A DNA stretch of 34,211 nt from Bacteroidia bacterium (GTDB taxonomy: Bacteria; Bacteroidota; Bacteroidia; JADZBD01). Of this stretch, positions 1 through 8,313 are shown one piece after another. A model generated the notes under the pieces. That model was given only the letters and a program-made list of their open reading frames with translations. It was not told the DNA's origin and ran no database searches. The first letter of the stretch is position 1. The number at the start of each line of letters is the position of its first letter. Where the stretch lies: assembly GCA_020054095.1 (NCBI GenBank), contig JAGVMA010000027.1:1-34211 (forward strand). Reading direction: 5' to 3'. The translations under genes were made by a program, and so were the position numbers.

Positions 1-1116
1 AAAAATGAGAATGCCCAGAATTTGGTGGTTAACCCCTCTTTTGAGCAATACACAGCTTGCCCCACCGGATCAAATGGAATTGCTGCGGGATGGTTGGTGG
101 GCTGGAGCGCAATAGATAGTCCGGATTTTTTTAATGTATGCTCCTCTGTGGCATCAGAAGTGAATGTCCCTGATAATTTTTTTGGGTTTCAATATGCAAA
201 AAACGGATATGGCTATGCTGGAGTTATATCATATACTCAATCAAATAATGTAAGAGAATTTATTCAATCACAACTTAGCCAAACATTATCTTTAGGAATT
301 CCATACTGCGTAAAATTTTATATAAATTTTGGCGATACATCCTATTTTTCCATCAATAAATTTGGTGCACTTTTTTCTGATACTGCTGTAGTTCCTTTTT
401 CAATATCGTATGGCTATCCATTTCTTTTGCCCTTTACGCCACAAATACAATATACCGGAAACATAATTTCAGATACATTAAATTGGATAGAGGTCTCGGG
501 TACATTTTATGCAAATGGCACAGAAAATTATATTACACTTGGGAATTTTGAATATGATTCTTTAACATCGGTAGCAATTTTTGATAGTGTTAGTGGGTGG
601 GCTGCAAATTATTTTTACATAGACGACATATCGGTAGAAGAAGTGAAAACAGCAAGAGCAGTAAACGATACGCTGCTGTGTGTGAATGCCGATAGCGTGA
701 TGATAGGCATAAACGTAACAGAGAATGCAAGTTACAGTTGGCAACCAAGCACAGGGCTAAGCGATGCTAATGCGCCCAACCCAAAAGCAAAACCAACAGT
801 TACTACTACTTATTATGTAACCAAAACACAGTGTAGCGTGGTGAGTACCGATAGTGTAACCATAAGTATTTACGATTGTACTATTTATCCAATACAAATA
901 CCCACACTAATTACAGCCAATGAATATTGGGAACTAAAACATTTAGAACCTAATACACAAGTGTGGGTTTACAATAGCATAGGTCAACTTGTGTATAAAG
1001 AAAGCAACTACCAAAACAAATTAAACGCCCAACTATTAGCATCAGGCATTTATATTTACAATATAGAAACAGCGCGCGGAGATTTTTATAAAGGAAAATT
1101 AGAAGTGGTGAAATAG
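1..1116 (+). CDS. T9SS-sorted surface protein with NPSFE-type N-terminal domain (5' partial)
   Basis: The frame is open to the left edge, reading KNENAQNLVVNPSFE, so the TTG at 22 is internal and the signal peptide and start lie outside the window. The mature protein begins with the NPSFE motif typical of Bacteroidota carbohydrate-binding-like secreted domains, running to about residue 205 and ending YIDDISVEEV. An Ig/PKD-like segment of about 65 residues follows (motifs SWQPSTGLSDANAPNP and TTTYYVTKTQC). The last 65 residues resemble a T9SS C-terminal sorting domain (NTQVWVYNSIGQLVYKE, then SGIYIYNIE and GKLEVVK). The expected location is outer membrane surface or secreted. The C-terminal half and the 3' flank are repeated almost exactly in the gene ending at 2911. 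The binding target cannot be told from sequence. Confidence 0.8.
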   Translation, partial: KNENAQNLVVNPSFEQYTACPTGSNGIAAGWLVGWSAIDSPDFFNVCSSVASEVNVPDNFFGFQYAKNGYGYAGVISYTQSNNVREFIQSQLSQTLSLGIPYCVKFYINFGDTSYFSINKFGALFSDTAVVPFSISYGYPFLLPFTPQIQYTGNIISDTLNWIEVSGTFYANGTENYITLGNFEYDSLTSVAIFDSVSGWAANYFYIDDISVEEVKTARAVNDTLLCVNADSVMIGINVTENASYSWQPSTGLSDANAPNPKAKPTVTTTYYVTKTQCSVVSTDSVTISIYDCTIYPIQIPTLITANEYWELKHLEPNTQVWVYNSIGQLVYKESNYQNKLNAQLLASGIYIYNIETARGDFYKGKLEVVK

Positions 1117-1171
1117 AATTGTGAATTATTAATAGTGAATGAAAAATTACACAAAGCACTGTGTTGCAAAA
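616..1171 (+). repeat. Direct repeat copy A: C-terminal cassette plus 3' flank
   Basis: From about 616 to 1171 the sequence aligns with 2411-2966 at a constant offset of 1795 bases with no indel. It covers the Ig-like segment, the sorting domain, the TAG stop and 55 further non-coding bases up to GTGTTGCAAAA. Only 4 of the last 58 bases differ, and about 6 of the roughly 160 encoded C-terminal residues differ. Upstream of this point the two genes have diverged strongly. Confidence 0.85.
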
Positions 1172-1790
1172 TTTTTACAGTGCAGCACAAAACAGTTGCT
1201 TCGGAAAACTTTTGGTGGTAGAAGAAAAAATTGAGTTGGGTTTATTTAATGAAGCGCTTACTCTTAATAGCAGTATATTTGCAAGTAACATAGTGGAGCA
1301 AAACCTGCAAACGGCTAATAATATGCTTTTAAAAAAATTAACAAACTATAACTACTCATATACCGGTGGTGATATTGTGGAGTTAAATTTAATAGCAGCC
1401 CAATGCGAAATGGAAGGCGGCAAAGGTGTGATATTGGCACGTAATATACTAATGCAATTAAGCAAAGGCATAATTGCTTTTGCAAATAATTGCAACAGTA
1501 ACGGGCGCATAGGAGATGATACTGAGCAAAGGACTGGAAATACAGAAGATAATTTTACACTTTACCCCAACCCGAATGATGGTAATTTCACATTAAATTA
1601 TACAATTGCTCTAGATGCACAATTAAACATAACCGATGTAACGGGTAAAGTTATATGCACATACAATTTACTTTCAAATGCTAATAGCATTGAGGTAAAT
1701 TGTAAAGAGTTAAGCAACGGTTGTTATTTATACAATATTTTATTAGGAGGTAGTGTGATTAAATCAGATAAGATTATAATTATAAAATAG
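1161..1790 (+). CDS. 5'-truncated T9SS type A sorting-domain protein
   Basis: The 209-codon frame has only a GTG (1161) as possible start, lying inside the 3' flank repeat of the preceding gene, with an in-frame stop at 1140. It has no signal peptide. Residues 25-100 (NEALTLNSSIFASNIVEQN, then IAAQCEMEGGKGVILARN) match the final helical segment found just before the sorting domain in very large Bacteroidota surface proteins. Residues 130-209 are a canonical type A sorting domain (FTLYPNPNDGNFTLNY, TDVTGKV, LSNGCYLYNIL, KIIIIK). I infer that this is the 3' end of a much longer gene whose N-terminal part has been lost by deletion or recombination, so it is probably not expressed as a secreted protein. 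Confidence 0.6.
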   Translation: MLQNFYSAAQNSCFGKLLVVEEKIELGLFNEALTLNSSIFASNIVEQNLQTANNMLLKKLTNYNYSYTGGDIVELNLIAAQCEMEGGKGVILARNILMQLSKGIIAFANNCNSNGRIGDDTEQRTGNTEDNFTLYPNPNDGNFTLNYTIALDAQLNITDVTGKVICTYNLLSNANSIEVNCKELSNGCYLYNILLGGSVIKSDKIIIIK

Positions 1791-1930
1791 ATGCTTTTGA
1801 AAATAATGCCCAAAATATAGTAAGCAATGGTTCGTTTGAGAATTTTAAAAATTGCATAGATTTTTATGCGAACAACGCAACGGGATGGATTGCGATAGGC
1901 ACCTCCGATTTTTATAATCCTTGTTTTGCT

Positions 1931-2911
1931 ATGGATACGAATGGAGTTCCTTCTAATTTTGCAGGATACCAGTATGCATACCATGGTCAATCGTACACAG
2001 GTTTAGCTGTGTTTTATAAAATCGCTCCTAATTACAGAGAGTATGTGCAATCAAAATTAACACAGCCTTTAATTCAAAATAATATCTATTGTACAAAGTT
2101 TTTTGTCTCCTCGTCCGATAGTTGTCGTTACTCATCAAAACAGATTGGAGCTTATTTTTCTGACACTTTGATATTCTCAAGTGATACTAATCTATTTCAA
2201 TTTTTTTATTTATCATCACCATATTATTCACCACAAGTGGAAAATAACCAAGGATTTATAAGCGATACAGTGGGATGGACGGAAGTAAATGGAATATTTA
2301 CAGCACAAGGCGGTGAAGAATATATAATAATAGGCAATTTTAAAAATGATACTCTAACGGACACGCTATTCACCCAAAACACATCCCCAGGATTTAGTGC
2401 CGCCTACTACTACCTCGATGATGTATCAGTAGAAGAAGTAAAAACAGCGCGGGCGGTAAACGATACACTGCTGTGTGTGAATGCAGATAGCGTGATGATA
2501 GGTATAAACGTAACAGAAAATGCAAGTTATAGTTGGCAGCCCAGCACAGGGCTAAGCGATGCCAATGCGCCCAACCCCAAAGCAAAACCAACGGTTACAA
2601 CTACTTATTATGTAACCAAAACACAATGCAGCGTGGTAAGTACCGATAGTGTAACCATAAGTATTTATGATTGTAATATATACCCATTAGCAATACCCAC
2701 ACTAATTACAACCAATGAATATTGGGAACTAAAACATTTAGAACCCAACACACAAGTGTGGCTTTATAACAGCATAGGACAACTTGTGTATAAAGAAGGC
2801 AATTACCAAAACAAATTAAACGCCCAACTATTAGCATCGGGCATTTATATTTACAATATAGAAACAGCGCGCGGAGATTTTTATAAAGGAAAATTAGAAG
2901 TGGTGAAATAG
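1931..2911 (+). CDS. T9SS surface protein paralogue lacking signal peptide and start (probable silent cassette or pseudogene)
   Basis: This is a paralogue of the gene ending at 1116. Homology to that protein's mature N-terminus begins at 1793 (AFENNAQNIVSNGSFE), in the same frame and well upstream of the only ATG (1931). Between the in-frame stop at 1769-1771 and 1931 there is no ATG, GTG or TTG, so no normal start can produce the full domain and the signal peptide is missing. The N-terminal domain is divergent, but from VEEVKTARAVND onward the protein is nearly identical to its neighbour, including the Ig-like segment and the sorting domain ending GKLEVVK. It abuts the stop codon of the preceding truncated gene. 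It is either a recombination donor cassette or a decayed copy; an assembly artefact cannot be excluded. Confidence 0.6.
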   Translation: MDTNGVPSNFAGYQYAYHGQSYTGLAVFYKIAPNYREYVQSKLTQPLIQNNIYCTKFFVSSSDSCRYSSKQIGAYFSDTLIFSSDTNLFQFFYLSSPYYSPQVENNQGFISDTVGWTEVNGIFTAQGGEEYIIIGNFKNDTLTDTLFTQNTSPGFSAAYYYLDDVSVEEVKTARAVNDTLLCVNADSVMIGINVTENASYSWQPSTGLSDANAPNPKAKPTVTTTYYVTKTQCSVVSTDSVTISIYDCNIYPLAIPTLITTNEYWELKHLEPNTQVWLYNSIGQLVYKEGNYQNKLNAQLLASGIYIYNIETARGDFYKGKLEVVK

Positions 2912-2966
2912 AATCGTGGATTATTAATAGTGAATGAAAAATTACTCAAAGCAGTGTGTTGCAAAA
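2411..2966 (+). repeat. Direct repeat copy B: C-terminal cassette plus 3' flank
   Basis: This is the partner of 616-1171 at a constant offset of +1795. It includes the last 500 coding bases, the stop and 55 bases of non-coding flank, ending at GTGTTGCAAAA. After that the two flanks differ completely: copy A runs into the truncated gene at 1161, and copy B runs into non-coding DNA. Confidence 0.85.
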
Positions 2967-2997
2967 ACTGATTAGCCTCTTCGGATAATTGTGTGTT

Positions 2998-3061
2998 GTC
3001 ATATTGAGCTTGTCGAAATATGTGCGCTGGCAGCCGCTTCCTTCGACAAGCTCAGGATGAC
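2998..3061. repeat. REP-like imperfect inverted repeat
   Basis: The arm GTCATATTGAGCTTGTCGAA at 2998-3017 is the reverse complement, apart from two bases, of TTCGACAAGCTCAGGATGAC at 3042-3061, with a 24-base spacer. The TGAGCTTGTCGAA core resembles a dispersed palindromic element that recurs in intergenic DNA of many bacteria. It lies between the converging T9SS gene and atpG, where it could act as a bidirectional transcript end. The rest of 2912-3210 holds no gene I can support. Confidence 0.65.
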
Positions 3062-3210
3062 CCAACTCTTTTTACAAAAAATAGTATTTACCGCAGAATT
3101 TTATCTTACAAATAACACCTCGTGCGCATTCTAAAACTTTTCGTAGAAAAACTATTTTGATTTACACTTCTCAAGAGGGAAGCGTACAAAGGCAAAGTTT
3201 ATTTTAAGTA

Positions 3211-4095
3211 TTAATTATTAAGCGCTTCTGCACCGCCCACAATCTCAAGTATTTCGCCTGTAATGGCAGCTTGCCGAGCTTTGTTGTAATGAAGTTTTAG
3301 TGCTTTAATTAATTCTTTTGCATTATCGGTTGCTTTGTGCATGGCGGTCATGCGTGCCCCGTGCTCTGCCGCATGCGAATCGAGCAGCGCTTTATAAAAT
3401 TGTGTTTTTAACGAGCGCGGTATAAGGTCGTCAACTATTTCTTTTTTACCGGGTTCAAAAATATAATCGGTAACGGCATTGCTCTTTTTGTTTTCTTGCG
3501 AGGCCGGTGCAACAGGCAAAAACTGTTCTACGGTGGTTACTTGCACTGCTGCGTTTTTAAATTGGTTGTAAATAATATCTATTCTATCAAACTGTCCTTT
3601 TGCAAATGCTTCCATAATTTTTTCGGCAACAGGCGCCACATTATCAAAAGTTAACTTGTCGAAAAGTTCGCTTGCGTTGCGAGGTAAATCAGAACCTACA
3701 ATTTTATATTCTGTTTTCTTAAAAAAGTCGGCCGCTTTTTTTCCCACACATAGCACCGATATTTGTTTGCCCTTGTATTGCTTTTTTGCCAAAAAATTAG
3801 CTTGTTTTATTGCATTGGCATTAAATGCACCACACAAACCCCTGTTAGATGTAACTACAATAAGCAACACATTATTCGCTTCGCGCTGACGAGAAAAAAC
3901 TCCTTCGCTGCTATCTAAACTTGCACTAAGGTTTTCTAAAATTTCTTTTAGCTTACCTGCATACGGGCGCATTTGTGTAACGGCATCTTGCGCTCTGCGT
4001 AACTTTGCAGCACTCACCATCTTCATCGCGCTGGTAATTTGTTGCGTTGATGATACTGATACTATACGGTTACGAACCTCTTTTAAATTTGCCAT
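3211..4095 (-). CDS. atpG: F1Fo ATP synthase subunit gamma
   Basis: This is the central-stalk subunit that rotates inside the alpha3beta3 head and couples proton flow to catalysis. At 294 residues it has the usual length. Both diagnostic ends are present: the N-terminal helix MANLKEVRNRIVSVSSTQQI followed by TSAMKMVSAAKLRRAQ, and the C-terminal helix ending ARQAAITGEILEIVGGAEAL. The central Rossmann-like region has VTSNRGLCGAFN. The ATG at 4095 lies 15 bases after the atpA stop, and this is the last gene of the ATP synthase run. The protein acts at the inner membrane, cytoplasmic side. Confidence 0.98.
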   Translation of the reverse strand: MANLKEVRNRIVSVSSTQQITSAMKMVSAAKLRRAQDAVTQMRPYAGKLKEILENLSASLDSSEGVFSRQREANNVLLIVVTSNRGLCGAFNANAIKQANFLAKKQYKGKQISVLCVGKKAADFFKKTEYKIVGSDLPRNASELFDKLTFDNVAPVAEKIMEAFAKGQFDRIDIIYNQFKNAAVQVTTVEQFLPVAPASQENKKSNAVTDYIFEPGKKEIVDDLIPRSLKTQFYKALLDSHAAEHGARMTAMHKATDNAKELIKALKLHYNKARQAAITGEILEIVGGAEALNN

Positions 4096-4110
4096 TGCCT
4101 GTATTCTCTT

Positions 4111-5694
4111 CTAATTGGTTTTGTATTTTTTAGAAAGGTCTTTTGCAACTGCCTCTATCGTGCCTGTTAACTCATCATTAAACTGGCCTGCTTTGAGTTG
4201 ATCCAAAACATTTTTGTGTTTTGTTTCCAAGAAACTTAACAACTCTGTTTCAAATTCTTTAACTCTGTTAACCGGCACATCTCTCAACAGTCCTTTTGTG
4301 CCGCAATAGATAATTGCAATTTGCTGTTCTACGCGCTGTGGCGAAAACTGACCTTGTTTTAAAATTTCTACGTTACGTGCTCCTTTATCTAAAACCGATT
4401 TTGTAGCAGCATCTAAATCAGAACCAAATTTTGCAAACGCTTCTAATTCGCGATACTGTGCTTGGTCGAGCTTCAATGTACCTGCCACTTTTTTCATTGA
4501 TTTAATTTGAGCATTACCACCCACACGCGATACCGAGATACCCACGTTAATTGCCGGACGAACACCTGCGTTAAATAAATTTGATTCCAAGAAAATTTGT
4601 CCATCGGTGATTGAAATCACATTGGTAGGAATGTATGCCGAAACGTCTCCGGCTTGTGTTTCAATAATTGGTAATGCTGTTAACGAACCACCGCCTTTTA
4701 CAATTCCTTTAATTGATTCGGGCAAATCGTTCATTTGTTGTGCAATGTTATCGTTAGCATTTATTTTTGCTGCACGCTCCAATAAGCGGCTGTGCAAATA
4801 AAACACATCGCCAGGGTATGCCTCGCGGCCCGGAGGTCTGCGGAGCAACAATGAAACTTCGCGGTAAGCTACTGCTTGTTTCGATAAATCATCGTAAATA
4901 ATTAATGCCGGGCGGCCGGTATCGCGGAAATATTCGCCAATGGCAGCGCCCGCAAACGGAGCATAAAACTGCATTGGAGCAGGATCGGAAGCATTTGCGG
5001 CAACAATAGTTGTATAGGCCATTGCACCGTTTTCTTCTAATACGCGTTGTACGTTAGCTACTGTTGATCCTTTTTGTCCAACCGCAACATAAATACAATA
5101 AACGGGTTTTCCTGCTTCAAAAAATTCTTTTTGGTTAATAATCGTATCAATACAAACGGCCGTTTTTCCGGTTTGGCGATCGCCAATAACTAACTCACGC
5201 TGTCCGCGTCCGATTGGAATCATGGCATCAATAGCTTTAATTCCCGTTTGTAATGGCTCGTTAACCGGTTGGCGATAAATTACACCCGGTGCTTTGCGCT
5301 CTAATGGCATTTCGTAAAGCTTGCCGGCAATTGGCCCTTTGCCGTCAATCGGCAAACCAAGTGTGTCAACCACGCGGCCAAGCATTCCTTCGCCCACGTT
5401 AATTGATGCAATTTTGCGTAAGCGTTTTGCGGTATCGCCTTCTTTAATTTCTTTTGATGAGCCCAAAATTACAGCGCCCACATTGTCTTCTTCCAGGTTA
5501 AGTACAATGCCTTTAAATCCGTTTTGGAATTCAATCAATTCACCCGATTGTACGTTCCCAAGTCCGTAAATGCGCGCAATTCCATCGCCCACTTGCAATA
5601 CGGTTCCCACCTCTTCTAAATCAGAGGCGGTTTTAAAATTTGATAGTTGCTGGCGCAATATTGCTGATACTTCAGCCGGTTTAATTTCTGCCAT
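4111..5694 (-). CDS. atpA: F1Fo ATP synthase subunit alpha
   Basis: This is the regulatory nucleotide-binding subunit of the F1 head. At 527 residues it is slightly longer than the roughly 510 of E. coli. The P-loop GDRQTGKT is at residues 171-178, preceded by [18 protein letters not shown]. The beta-barrel domain has [21 protein letters not shown], and the alpha signature region [17 protein letters not shown] is intact. It lies 16 bases downstream of atpH and 15 upstream of atpG, so it belongs to the same transcript. The catalytic beta partner is not in the window and must be encoded elsewhere, which is normal for Bacteroidota. Confidence 0.99.
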
Positions 5695-5710
5695 TTTTAT
5701 TTTTGTTTAA

Positions 5711-6265
5711 TTAAAATTCTTTTATGTAAGGGTTTTCTTTAAATGCCCTGTTTAACTTCATGATTTTTGTACGTATGCTTGTGTCGTCTTGTTTATCGCC
5801 CACTCTTATTATAAATCCGCCAATAATCTTTTTATCTACTTTTTCTATTAATTCCACTTCGCTATTCGAACTTGCTTTTACTACTTCTAAAACTTTCTTG
5901 CGCAAATCGGCATCTAAACCAAAAGCGGTAGTAATTACAGCTGTAAGTATTTTTTTATGATTTCGATATTGCGCTACAAATGCATTGGCTATCGCTTCCA
6001 AATACAATTCTCTGCGCTTGCGAACTATCACTTTTAAAAACTCGTTGGTTATTTTATTGGCCGATGAAAAAATTGCCAGCAAAATAGTTTCTTTTTTGTC
6101 GGATTTAATTACCGGACTTTTAAGCATTAAAACCAAGTCGCGATTTTGTTTGCACGATTCGGCAATCAATTTCATGTCGGTATGCACTTGCTCTAATTGT
6201 CCTTTTTCGAGCGACAAGTCGAGCAGTGATTTTGCGTATCGGTTAGCTACTTTAGTTCCTTGCAT
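5711..6265 (-). CDS. atpH: F1Fo ATP synthase subunit delta (OSCP)
   Basis: This is the peripheral-stalk subunit linking the b subunits to the top of F1. At 184 residues it matches the family length. It has the N-terminal helical-bundle motif VANRYAKSLLDLSLEKGQLE and the C-terminal signature IGGFIIRVGDKQDDTSIRTK. The ATG at 6265 is 2 bases after the atpF stop, which suggests translational coupling. The central region is divergent, as is usual for this subunit. Confidence 0.96.
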   Translation of the reverse strand: MQGTKVANRYAKSLLDLSLEKGQLEQVHTDMKLIAESCKQNRDLVLMLKSPVIKSDKKETILLAIFSSANKITNEFLKVIVRKRRELYLEAIANAFVAQYRNHKKILTAVITTAFGLDADLRKKVLEVVKASSNSEVELIEKVDKKIIGGFIIRVGDKQDDTSIRTKIMKLNRAFKENPYIKEF

Positions 6266-6267
6266 TT

Positions 6268-6762
6268 TTAGTTCAGATTAACATCATCTAAAAGCGCTTT
6301 TACAAGTTGCTTTTGTTTTTCTTGCGATGATAATTCTTCTTTTAAAATTCGTTCCGCTATTTCTATTGATAGGGTTGCTACCTGATTTTTTAGTTCGGTG
6401 ATGGCCGCCATTTTTTCGTTTTGAATATTTTCGCGCGCTGCGGTTAATAATCGTTCGCCTTCTTTTTTTGCAGCGTCTTTTGCTTCTGCTACTATGCGGT
6501 CTTTGGTATCGCGCGCATCTTTAAGCAAAGCGTCTCTTTCGGCACGAGCTTCGGCTAAAATTTTATCGTTGCTCGATTTTAAAGCCGCCATTTCTTCTTT
6601 TGCTTTTTTAGCAGCATCAAGCGCGTTTTGAATAGAATCTTCGCGCTCTTTAAGCATGGTTAAAATTGGCTTCCAGGCAAACTTTTTTAAGAGGAAAAAA
6701 ATTATTCCGAATGAGATGAGCATCCAGAAAATAAGTCCAAAGGCGGGTTTTACTAATTCCAT
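6268..6762 (-). CDS. atpF: F1Fo ATP synthase subunit b
   Basis: This is the peripheral stalk subunit. It has one N-terminal membrane segment (residues about 8-27, LIFWMLISFGIIFFLLKKF), then WKPILTMLKEREDSIQNAL and a long charged, Ala/Lys/Glu-rich coiled coil to the C-terminus. The length of 164 residues is typical. It is separated from atpE by 80 bases that contain a perfect 13-bp hairpin, and sits 2 bases from atpH. Confidence 0.97.
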   Translation of the reverse strand: MELVKPAFGLIFWMLISFGIIFFLLKKFAWKPILTMLKEREDSIQNALDAAKKAKEEMAALKSSNDKILAEARAERDALLKDARDTKDRIVAEAKDAAKKEGERLLTAARENIQNEKMAAITELKNQVATLSIEIAERILKEELSSQEKQKQLVKALLDDVNLN

Positions 6763-6793
6763 TTTATATTATTTTTCAATTAACTTTTTTAAA

Positions 6794-6826
6794 ATCGGCA
6801 TTGCAACCAACCGTTGCAATGCCGAT
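6794..6826 (-). promoter_or_regulatory. Strong hairpin between atpE and atpF
   Basis: This is a perfect 13-bp inverted repeat (arms 6794-6806 and 6814-6826, ATCGGCATTGCAA and its complement) with a 7-base loop, starting 16 bases after the atpE stop on the minus strand. In the RNA it is followed by UUUAAAAAAG, a poor U-tract, so it looks more like an RNA-stability or partial-termination element than a full terminator. It would separate the highly needed c-subunit message from the rest of the operon. Confidence 0.7.
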
Positions 6827-6842
6827 AATTTTTGTTGTCGGG

Positions 6843-7121
<279 letters not shown>

Positions 7122-7144
7122 TTATTTTTCTCTGATTTATTTTA

Positions 7145-7175
7145 TTGCCCACTGCCAGAGAAACTCAGCGGGTAA
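7145..7175 (-). promoter_or_regulatory. Imperfect hairpin between atpB and atpE
   Basis: The arms at 7145-7154 and 7166-7175 pair over 10 positions in the minus-strand RNA, with one G-U pair and one mismatch, around an 11-base loop. It lies between the atpB stop (7183) and the atpE ATG (7109). Together with 6794-6826 it brackets the atpE message. Confidence 0.4.
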
Positions 7176-7182
7176 TTTTTTA

Positions 7183-8313
7183 CTAATGATGGTCATCGTG
7201 GTGGTGCTCCTCTACTGCTGCACCAAAGTACATTGCCGCTAGCAGTGTAAAAACATACGCTTGTAAAAATGCCACAAGCAATTCAAGCGCTCCCATGAAA
7301 ACCGTAAATGCAATTGACAAAATAGAAACACCAAAACCAAGGCCGGTGTTCATTTCGGCAAAAATAAATATCAAGCTAAAAAACGATAGTGCAATAATGT
7401 GACCCGCCATTATGTTTGCAAACAATCGAATCATTAAAACAAATGGTTTTAAAAACACTCCTATTATCTCAATAGGAGTTAGCAGCGCTAATACGCCCAC
7501 AGGCACACCGGGCATTGCCAAAATATGTTTCCAATAATTTGCATTACCGCTAACGGTGGTAATAATAAATACGATGGTGGCAAGTGTAAGCGCTACGGCA
7601 ATGTTTCCGGTTACATTTGCTCCACCGGGTAAAATTGGAATAAGACCAAGTAAATTGCTAAACCATATAAAGAAAAACGAAGTGAGTAGAAAAGGCAAAT
7701 ATTTCTGGTATTTTTTTTCGCCTATTGAAGATTTTGCAATGTCATCGCGCACAAAAATAATGAGTGGCTCTACAAACGACTGTATGCCTTTTGGTGCCGA
7801 ACCCTGATTGCGAGCATACATTCTGGCGGCCGAAATAAATATCCAGGCCATTAAGCCCATGGTAATAAAAATAGAAAATACGTTTTTGGTTATTGATAAG
7901 TCCCATGTTTGGGCAGTAAGTTCTTCGTTAATGGTTGCGCTGAGGGCATCAACCGATTCTTGTTCGTTTACCGCAACAATATGCCTATTGTGAAGCATAT
8001 AGCCATTATAAGTTTTGTGGCCGTGATCGAACTTGCTTGACAAGAAAACACTCAGCCCTTTTTCAGATGAATAAAGAATAACCGGAAGCGGGAGCGAGAG
8101 ATTACCTGCAATATGCCAACCGTGCTCATCGGTAATGTGACCTATAATTAGTTCCCCGGCATTAAATTTTTCTTCTTTTGTTTCGTGGTGGCTTTCGGTT
8201 GTGCGATGCTCTTCGTCTGAATCGGCAAAAGCAAATTGATTAAAATAAACAAAAAGGGTGGCTATTGCCGATAACACAAAAATCTTTCTGAAACCCTTAA
8301 TTTTACTAATCAT
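7183..8313 (-). CDS. atpB: F1Fo ATP synthase subunit a
   Basis: This is the stator channel of Fo that carries protons to and from the c ring. The 376-residue protein has the Bacteroidota-type N-terminal extension: a signal-like segment (residues 8-30), a His/Glu-rich stretch, then a periplasmic domain with LSLPLPVILYSSEKGLSVF and a HGHKTYNGYML motif before the first conserved membrane helix (about 145-163). The essential channel arginine is Arg296 in FVLMIRLFANIMAGH. The last helix carries LLVAFLQAYVFTLLAAMYF, and the C-terminus is His/Asp-rich (EEHHHDDHH). It is the first gene of the core operon and has a good promoter match upstream. Confidence 0.98.
   Translation of the reverse strand: MISKIKGFRKIFVLSAIATLFVYFNQFAFADSDEEHRTTESHHETKEEKFNAGELIIGHITDEHGWHIAGNLSLPLPVILYSSEKGLSVFLSSKFDHGHKTYNGYMLHNRHIVAVNEQESVDALSATINEELTAQTWDLSITKNVFSIFITMGLMAWIFISAARMYARNQGSAPKGIQSFVEPLIIFVRDDIAKSSIGEKKYQKYLPFLLTSFFFIWFSNLLGLIPILPGGANVTGNIAVALTLATIVFIITTVSGNANYWKHILAMPGVPVGVLALLTPIEIIGVFLKPFVLMIRLFANIMAGHIIALSFFSLIFIFAEMNTGLGFGVSILSIAFTVFMGALELLVAFLQAYVFTLLAAMYFGAAVEEHHHDDHH

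Follow-up and report, generated by a model that had tools for sequence, protein, structure and literature searches.

Divergent carbohydrate-binding-module-like heads on shared export tails in a type IX secretion cargo family of Bacteroidota, and their probable origin by recombination among paralogues

The window analyzed here, 34,211 nucleotides in length, is the entire contig C71 (JAGVMA010000027.1) of a Bacteroidia draft genome (GCA_020054095.1; 3.17 Mb in 87 contigs), referred to below as the source genome. Its first 3 kb carry, all on the forward strand, a small gene (gene 1, positions 1-1116), a fragment of a larger gene and a second small gene (gene 2). Each small gene encodes a head of about 210 residues followed by a tail of 160 residues, which consists of a stalk and a sorting domain for the type IX secretion system (T9SS; Table 1). 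The 5' end of gene 1, including its signal peptide, is truncated by the start of the contig. The T9SS exports very many Bacteroidota surface proteins and, to our knowledge, the diversification of its cargo is little described outside Porphyromonas.

Table 1. Features at the start of contig C71 and the evidence for them (CBM, carbohydrate-binding module)
Feature	Position	Strand	Evidence and remarks
Head domain of gene 1	1-633	+	phmmer map, AlphaFold2 model, PDB matches; CBM-like jelly roll
Tail of gene 1, shared cassette	634-1113	+	92% DNA identity to 2429-2908, 91% to C79; CHU_C PF13585 and TIGR04183
Stalk of gene 1	about 634-873	+	
Type IX sorting domain of gene 1	about 874-1113	+	
Shared 3' flank and seam	1117-1171	+	About 28 bases intergenic, then start of the large-gene fragment
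Large-gene 3' fragment	1145-1790	+	C-terminal region and T9SS type A sorting domain; without 5' part or signal peptide
Expected site of gene 2 signal peptide	1791-1801	+	Comparison with C79:6635-6703
Head domain of gene 2	1802-2428	+	phmmer map; 40-41% protein identity to head of gene 1; synonymous differences 0.77
Tail of gene 2 including stop codon, shared cassette	2429-2911	+	Stalk and T9SS sorting domain
Second copy of 3' flank and seam, behind gene 2	2912-2966	+	51/55 identical to 1117-1171; ends in a vestige of the large-gene fragment

The paired genes on contig C71

A repeat search of positions 1-6000 returned a single family of direct repeats, 616-915 and 2411-2710, at a spacing of 1795. 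In a DNA search, 616-1171 and 2411-2966 aligned without a gap at 92% identity over all 556 bases (E 4e-231), which bears out the claim of an earlier note, made from the sequence alone, that two 3' cassettes lie here at a fixed offset of 1795. The note had also described the N-terminal halves as far less alike, and protein identity between the genes is indeed low in the head, as listed in Table 1, and 96% in the tail. Compared in 30-base blocks at this offset, the copies share 16 and 18 of 30 bases in the first 60 bases, 3 to 13 across most of the heads, 16 at 601-630, 23 to 30 over 631-1170 and 8 beyond. Identity rises sharply at about base 630 and drops at 1171, and the sliding comparison that the note had proposed thus places the break where the head domain ends. 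The match continues for 55 bases past the stop codon, as the note had stated; its description of this flank as non-coding holds only in part, since the flank enters large-gene sequence at position 1145.

PF13585 and TIGR04183 scored above their cut-offs in proteins P0001 and P0002, identifying a C-terminal T9SS sorting domain, and TIGR04183 or TIGR04131 was found in nine of the ten relatives scanned. The tenth, from Winogradskyella eximia (L189:6001-6900), carries the same head fused to an OmpA-like C-terminus and has no sorting domain. AlphaFold2 modeled the head as a jelly roll with a high predicted local distance difference test score (pLDDT) over most of residues 60-210, and the stalk and sorting domain poorly. 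The best PDB matches of the head are CBM16, CBM61, CBM4, CBM22, HpiC1-type cyclases and Porphyromonas Kgp adhesin domains, with Z scores of 10.6-12.7 among the rows listed (VIA-align Z 10.7-12.7 for the CBM families), and the predicted model thus has a CBM-type jelly-roll fold. No Pfam CBM family scored above its cut-off in the proteins scanned: gene 1 had only an HpiC1-like match (E 0.016), and CBM_4_9 reached 17.5 bits in L097 against a cut-off of 25.9. A search of the A3 profile against solved structures by sequence gave no match at E up to 1. Judging by these models, the gene products are probably exported and sugar-binding, with glycan binding by the head suggested by its fold; the same predicted fold points to the head as the putative exposed, binding part. 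In three relatives (L153, L158, and L190) a single open frame contains two or three heads, so that the head also multiplies within a protein.

A third copy of the cassette lies on contig C79 (7307-7818; 91% identical to 616-1171 over 512 bases), in line with the note's suggestion that the rest of the genome be searched for further copies; a first scan of the genome contigs with P0002 had returned no match. The C79 small gene (6635-7807) directly follows an intact gene (3034-6633) for a 1199-amino-acid (aa) protein with a T9SS sorting domain, which we take from its sequence to be of beta-helix character. After the last tail codon, the flank of the C79 copy matches for 14 bases only. The fragment between the two C71 genes matches the end of the 1199-aa protein at 65% protein identity and has TIGR04183 above cut-off, and its first bases (1145-1194) are 86% identical to C79:5988-6037, which is coding sequence within the large upstream gene. 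Compared with this gene, the fragment is a patchwork of near-identical blocks amid divergent sequence. Because the 3' part of a large gene is here joined to the 3' flank of gene 1, the shared 55 bases run over the seam into the fragment. After gene 2 the start of the seam recurs and the rest of the fragment is absent. An amplification seam is the best reading of the shared flank.

Compared codon by codon, the three pairs of copies differ at synonymous sites by 0.77, 0.76, and 0.76 over the head and by 0.28, 0.28, and 0.31 over the tail (Fisher p 2e-14, 6e-14, and 2e-12, respectively). Saturated heads beside tails at 0.28-0.31 in every pair exclude a uniform divergence along the copies, which the note had named as the outcome that would speak against its reading. 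The heads differ, in addition, by many insertions and deletions (indels). Positive selection on the head would not raise synonymous change, nor would constraint on the tail so lower it, and the sharing of tails therefore requires recombination and not selection alone. The synonymous substitution rate (dS) in the tails is 0.35-0.39, and the ratio of the non-synonymous rate to it (dN/dS) is about 0.05 to 0.09. Other tails of the source genome have diverged at synonymous sites (e.g., C30a/C30b, 0.68). Within this genome the head nearest to that of gene 1 is the C79 head, which is 58-60% identical, and the search revealed no near-identical heads.

The small gene on C79 begins with an ATG followed by the codons of a signal-peptide-like stretch (protein start MKTLKKILLGLLLSSIFFNTNAQ, judged by eye). 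On C71 the matching ATG lies at 1791, right after the stop codon of the large-gene fragment; the sequence that follows is out of frame and 46 nt shorter than its C79 counterpart, and in the open frame of gene 2 no ATG, GTG, or TTG occurs before 1931. As assembled, gene 2 would therefore be without a signal peptide and could not be exported. Judging by the low dN of its tail (0.019 vs. a dS of 0.35), the gene probably worked during the greater part of its evolution. The present start may be a real lesion or an assembly error. Two other paralogues of the source genome also look damaged: the one on C12 (L014:2139-2773) has an in-frame TAG within the head match, and the one on C83 (L078:1-220) has a stop in the signal-peptide region. 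Contigs C9, C12, C30, C71, C77, C81, and C83 end within or beside family members, which is expected if repeats broke the assembly.

Relatives in other Bacteroidota genomes

Relatives were collected from 60 genomes including the source genome, 54 of them with a match. Twenty regions were hand-picked from the match list, mostly for their tandem look, and 79 loci came from named records, these being the best 80 of 244; an order-level search covered two genomes. The relatives are mostly metagenome-assembled Bacteroidota, with one isolate, W. eximia, among the titles. After dropping partial heads, heads with N and exact duplicates, we kept 157 complete heads from 81 genomes. The table of synonymous differences covers 170 pairs whose tails measure 60-399 aa, and that of DNA identities 199 within-genome pairs; genome counts are given because pairs within a genome are not independent.

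Among the within-genome pairs, 12/196 (4 genomes) have tails with at least 90% DNA identity. The same level is found for the 5' flank in 4/185 (4 genomes), for the 60 bases that follow the stop in 3/168, and for the head in 0/199. At a threshold of at least 85% the counts were 14/196 for the tail, 4/185 for the 5' flank, and 1/199 for the head, and tail or 5' flank passed it in 7 genomes. Synonymous differences below 0.5 in the tail coincided with values of at least 0.6 in the head in 14 of 170 pairs; the reverse combination occurred once.

The clearest cases come from three sets of relatives. In the metagenome-assembled genome (MAG) Cfx3-09 (JACABE), locus L125 contains two tandem units in which 499 bases 5' of the head are 98.6% and 513 bases 3' of it 98.2% identical, with heads that give no DNA alignment and share 47% protein identity. 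JACABE tails are 83-94% alike across three contigs. One further JACABE copy shares only the half encoding the sorting domain: synonymous differences there are 0.19-0.26 against L210/L209 and 0.39 against L207, and 0.56-0.68 in the stalk against L210 and L209. Conversion tracts with differing ends explain this copy. In the Flavobacteriales MAG Tobar13m (JAIPBJ), three tails have synonymous differences of 0.09-0.12 and their heads 0.72-0.86, and behind each tail the same seam leads into large-gene sequence. The tandem copies of genome G054 carry saturated heads between near-identical tails and near-identical DNA where the signal-peptide codons end, and two G054 heads show 78-79% identity to heads from a separate array with strongly differing tails.

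A tree was built from 32 heads of our choice, namely 6 JACABE copies and 26 others. This head tree rejected the groups defined by tails in G054 (p 0.00019), for C30a/C83 of the source genome (p 0.0008) and in JACABE (p 0.017). The heads of JACABE, JAIPBJ, G054, CANIQT, and CANJYB cluster by genome, which argues for diversification within lineages and not for import; those of the source genome are scattered over the tree. In 11 of 14 homogenized pairs the estimated break lies no more than 45 nt from the DDVS-type motif that closes the head; in two others it lies deep inside the head, and in one the motif was not found.

Upstream sequence is repeated just past a small-gene stop in 14 of 36 multi-gene loci vs. 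1 of 74 single-gene loci, the former count covering not only large-gene fragments but also simple tandem repeats of the signal-peptide region of the following gene, and past the final gene in 4 of these 36. In L144 the seam follows all three small genes. Short large-gene fragments precede tandem copies in L144 (158 aa), L138 (242 aa), L135 (269 aa), and L107 (269 aa), and the preceding large-gene copies reach 1428 aa in L138 and 1968 aa in L135, all measured as open frames. A homologue of the large gene's C-terminus was found directly upstream of 36 small genes from 21 genomes, 98 of the 157 genes having a testable upstream frame.

Hairpins with a score of at least 10 precede the head in 23 of 155 cases (two of the 157 heads lie too near the locus end) vs. 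3 of 775 shuffles and 2 of 155 windows from the head body. Downstream of stops they occur in 29 of 142 cases. Because of this similar rate we did not use the signal-peptide hairpins as recombination sites; most are probably ordinary terminators. Examples of strong hairpins that lie over or next to the signal-peptide codons are those at L008:6645-6689 and at the 5' ends of small genes in L082, L111, L160, L144, L185, and L149. Some, like the one at C79, contain or precede a run of T and resemble terminators. The JAIPBJ hairpins lie at the end of the signal peptide, have no T run and show paired changes in the stem.

Recombination among paralogues and alternative explanations

The observed mosaic pattern, its recurrence in other genomes, the conflicts with the head tree in three other groups and the seam point, in our judgment with good probability, to ectopic gene conversion and unequal crossing-over in a modular family of T9SS cargo. 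The note's reading of the C71 pair as a product of gene conversion or cassette exchange is supported accordingly by the synonymous contrast, the sharper cases in other Bacteroidota and the head-tree conflicts. Members of the family would combine a CBM-like head with an interchangeable tail made of stalk and sorting domain. Homologous recombination among paralogues, both tandem and distant, would repeatedly copy the tail with adjoining DNA, breaking off near the conserved YYYIDDVSV codons that end the head, and the heads would escape copying and continue to diverge. Arrays would grow by unequal crossing-over in which the 3' region of the large gene pairs with the vestige found behind the small gene, each event duplicating or losing a segment composed of the large-gene 3' end and the small gene. 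As the agent we infer RecA-type homologous recombination; the direction of copying and the crossing-over at the vestige are likewise read from the comparisons, and the heads would bind different glycans or surfaces. If homogenization of tails and 5' flanks, but not heads, in several unrelated draft genomes has this cause, it would be a general route by which surface binding specificities are renewed while the export signal is kept. The family also offers a layout open to direct test, with borders of constant DNA, a break point that can be mapped, and seam repeats from which gains and losses of array members can be predicted.

Several observations weigh against this reading or restrict it. Tail identity is below 80% in 179 of the 196 within-genome pairs, so that most pairs are without a homogenized tail and exchange is occasional. 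In 11 of 170 pairs heads with at least 60% protein identity are joined to tails with less than 60%, a reverse modularity from which it follows that tails have also been replaced by foreign ones. Every genome is a draft assembly, and nearly all are MAGs. Given the tail dS, exchange in the source genome was not recent, and it is old or slow there rather than a sign of recent activity. Moreover, the heads of the window trio already group together in the head tree (support 67) and were not rejected as a clade. The C71 and C79 genes fit an old duplication with later tail-only conversion and a transfer of tails between old genes equally well. The window is an old and partly damaged example, and the relatives show the process more clearly.

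Head replacement, in which a whole unit is duplicated and a divergent head then recombines in at its NLVPN and YYYIDDVSV ends, is a possible but doubtful alternative. It would suit JACABE L125, where both flanks are about 98% identical and the head alone differs; head 1 of this locus and a head on a different contig, whose tail has diverged further, are 89% alike, and in L147 and L152 the 5' flank is homogenized as far as the head start. However, JAIPBJ is homogenized on the 3' side only, for which tail conversion is simpler, the best donor found in the genome for head 2 of L125 is only 58% identical, and the 5' side of gene 1 lies beyond the contig start. A tentative extension, which we regard as unlikely, is a general head-exchange system for surface display in Bacteroidota, many of which are known from metagenomes alone. 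Crossing-over at seam repeats would resize arrays whose unit joins a sorting-domain fragment of a large exported protein to a CBM-like head protein, and heads would move between constant DNA on the 5' and the 3' side at conserved motifs of the N- and C-terminal head ends. If true, each lineage would possess continually renewed binding specificities at its surface, all carried by one export tail, and the hairpins where the signal-peptide codons end, at the 5' border of the head, might mark or regulate this border.

An active variation system, with silent copies as the source of heads for an expressed locus in the manner of vls or pilE/pilS, appears improbable. Gene 2 on C71, lacking a signal peptide and preceded by a truncated gene, could be such a silent copy next to the intact gene on C79, but a tail dS of 0.35 is too old for frequent exchange in the source genome. 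Neither near-identical donor heads nor a set of donor segments with an expression site was found in this genome, and the array copies of G054, JACABE, and JAIPBJ retain signal-peptide-like starts, as judged by eye.

Selection alone, i.e., strong constraint on the tail and a head free to diverge with zero recombination, agrees with the low dN/dS of the tails; we give it very little credence. Synonymous sites and the flank are conserved as well, the C30a and C30b tails have diverged at synonymous sites in the same genome, the head tree rejected three tail groups, and one JACABE copy combines a converted sorting domain with an unconverted stalk. Just as improbable is an assembly artefact in the form of a chimeric or duplicated contig end. 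The contig does begin inside gene 1, and the signal peptide of gene 2 is missing exactly where C79 has a strong hairpin. However, the copies differ by about 8% from each other and by about 9% from C79, so that they are not read copies of one another, and the same architecture occurs in independently assembled genomes; at distances of 8-10%, the simple assembly duplicate that the note had named as a possible objection is set aside. That a diversity-generating retroelement hypermutated the heads of recently duplicated genes has a negligible probability, since, although divergence is limited to the head, the reverse transcriptase PF00078 was found in 0 of 1 own genome (a draft listed as 100% complete; controls were positive in 3 of 14), the heads differ by many indels and similar heads occur in two G054 arrays. 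A viral origin was also considered and rejected: five stretches in viral contigs matched the pattern, and none encoded a relative.

Silent-cassette variation of Neisseria pilE/pilS combines constant flanks and a variable part with segmental conversion between copies. The C71 family resembles it in these respects and likewise Borrelia vls; unlike vls and pilE, most of its relatives look intact and head divergence is far greater. A known case from Porphyromonas gingivalis, described in PMC5266723, is that of the gingipains and HagA, T9SS cargo whose jelly-roll adhesin domains form modular mosaics by recombination, with variation between strains in a few large proteins. The Kgp K1-K3 adhesin domains match the head fold of the C71 family. 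Unlike the gingipains, this family consists of small two-part genes in arrays, with a constant tail and 5' flank, an unhomogenized head, and a large-gene seam. Polymorphic toxins with exchangeable C-terminal domains, as presented in PMC3482391, similarly join a constant and an exchangeable module on an exported protein; in the C71 family, by contrast, the constant part is C-terminal and carries the export signal, and the variable part is N-terminal. No toxin or immunity genes were seen, no search having been aimed at them. The CBM4, CBM16, CBM22, and CBM61 families are alike in predicted head fold and unlike in Pfam assignment, as described above. In open-access full text we found no paper on such an array and none joining a T9SS C-terminal domain with domain shuffling, and both absences are weak evidence; in the parts of PMC5808330 and PMC5714932 available, "gene conversion" occurs in reference titles only.

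Further features lie within and beside the cassettes. A terminator-like stem of 12 pairs is located inside the sorting-domain codons on the reverse strand at 1022-1052 and 2817-2847, and also at C79:7713-7743. Directly after the vestige, positions 2977-3100 hold a dispersed intergenic repeat with palindromic arms, which is 95% identical to C11:9181-9305 and has shorter matches on many further contigs. Beyond gene 2, the opposite strand carries what we take, from sequence alone, to be an ATP synthase operon.

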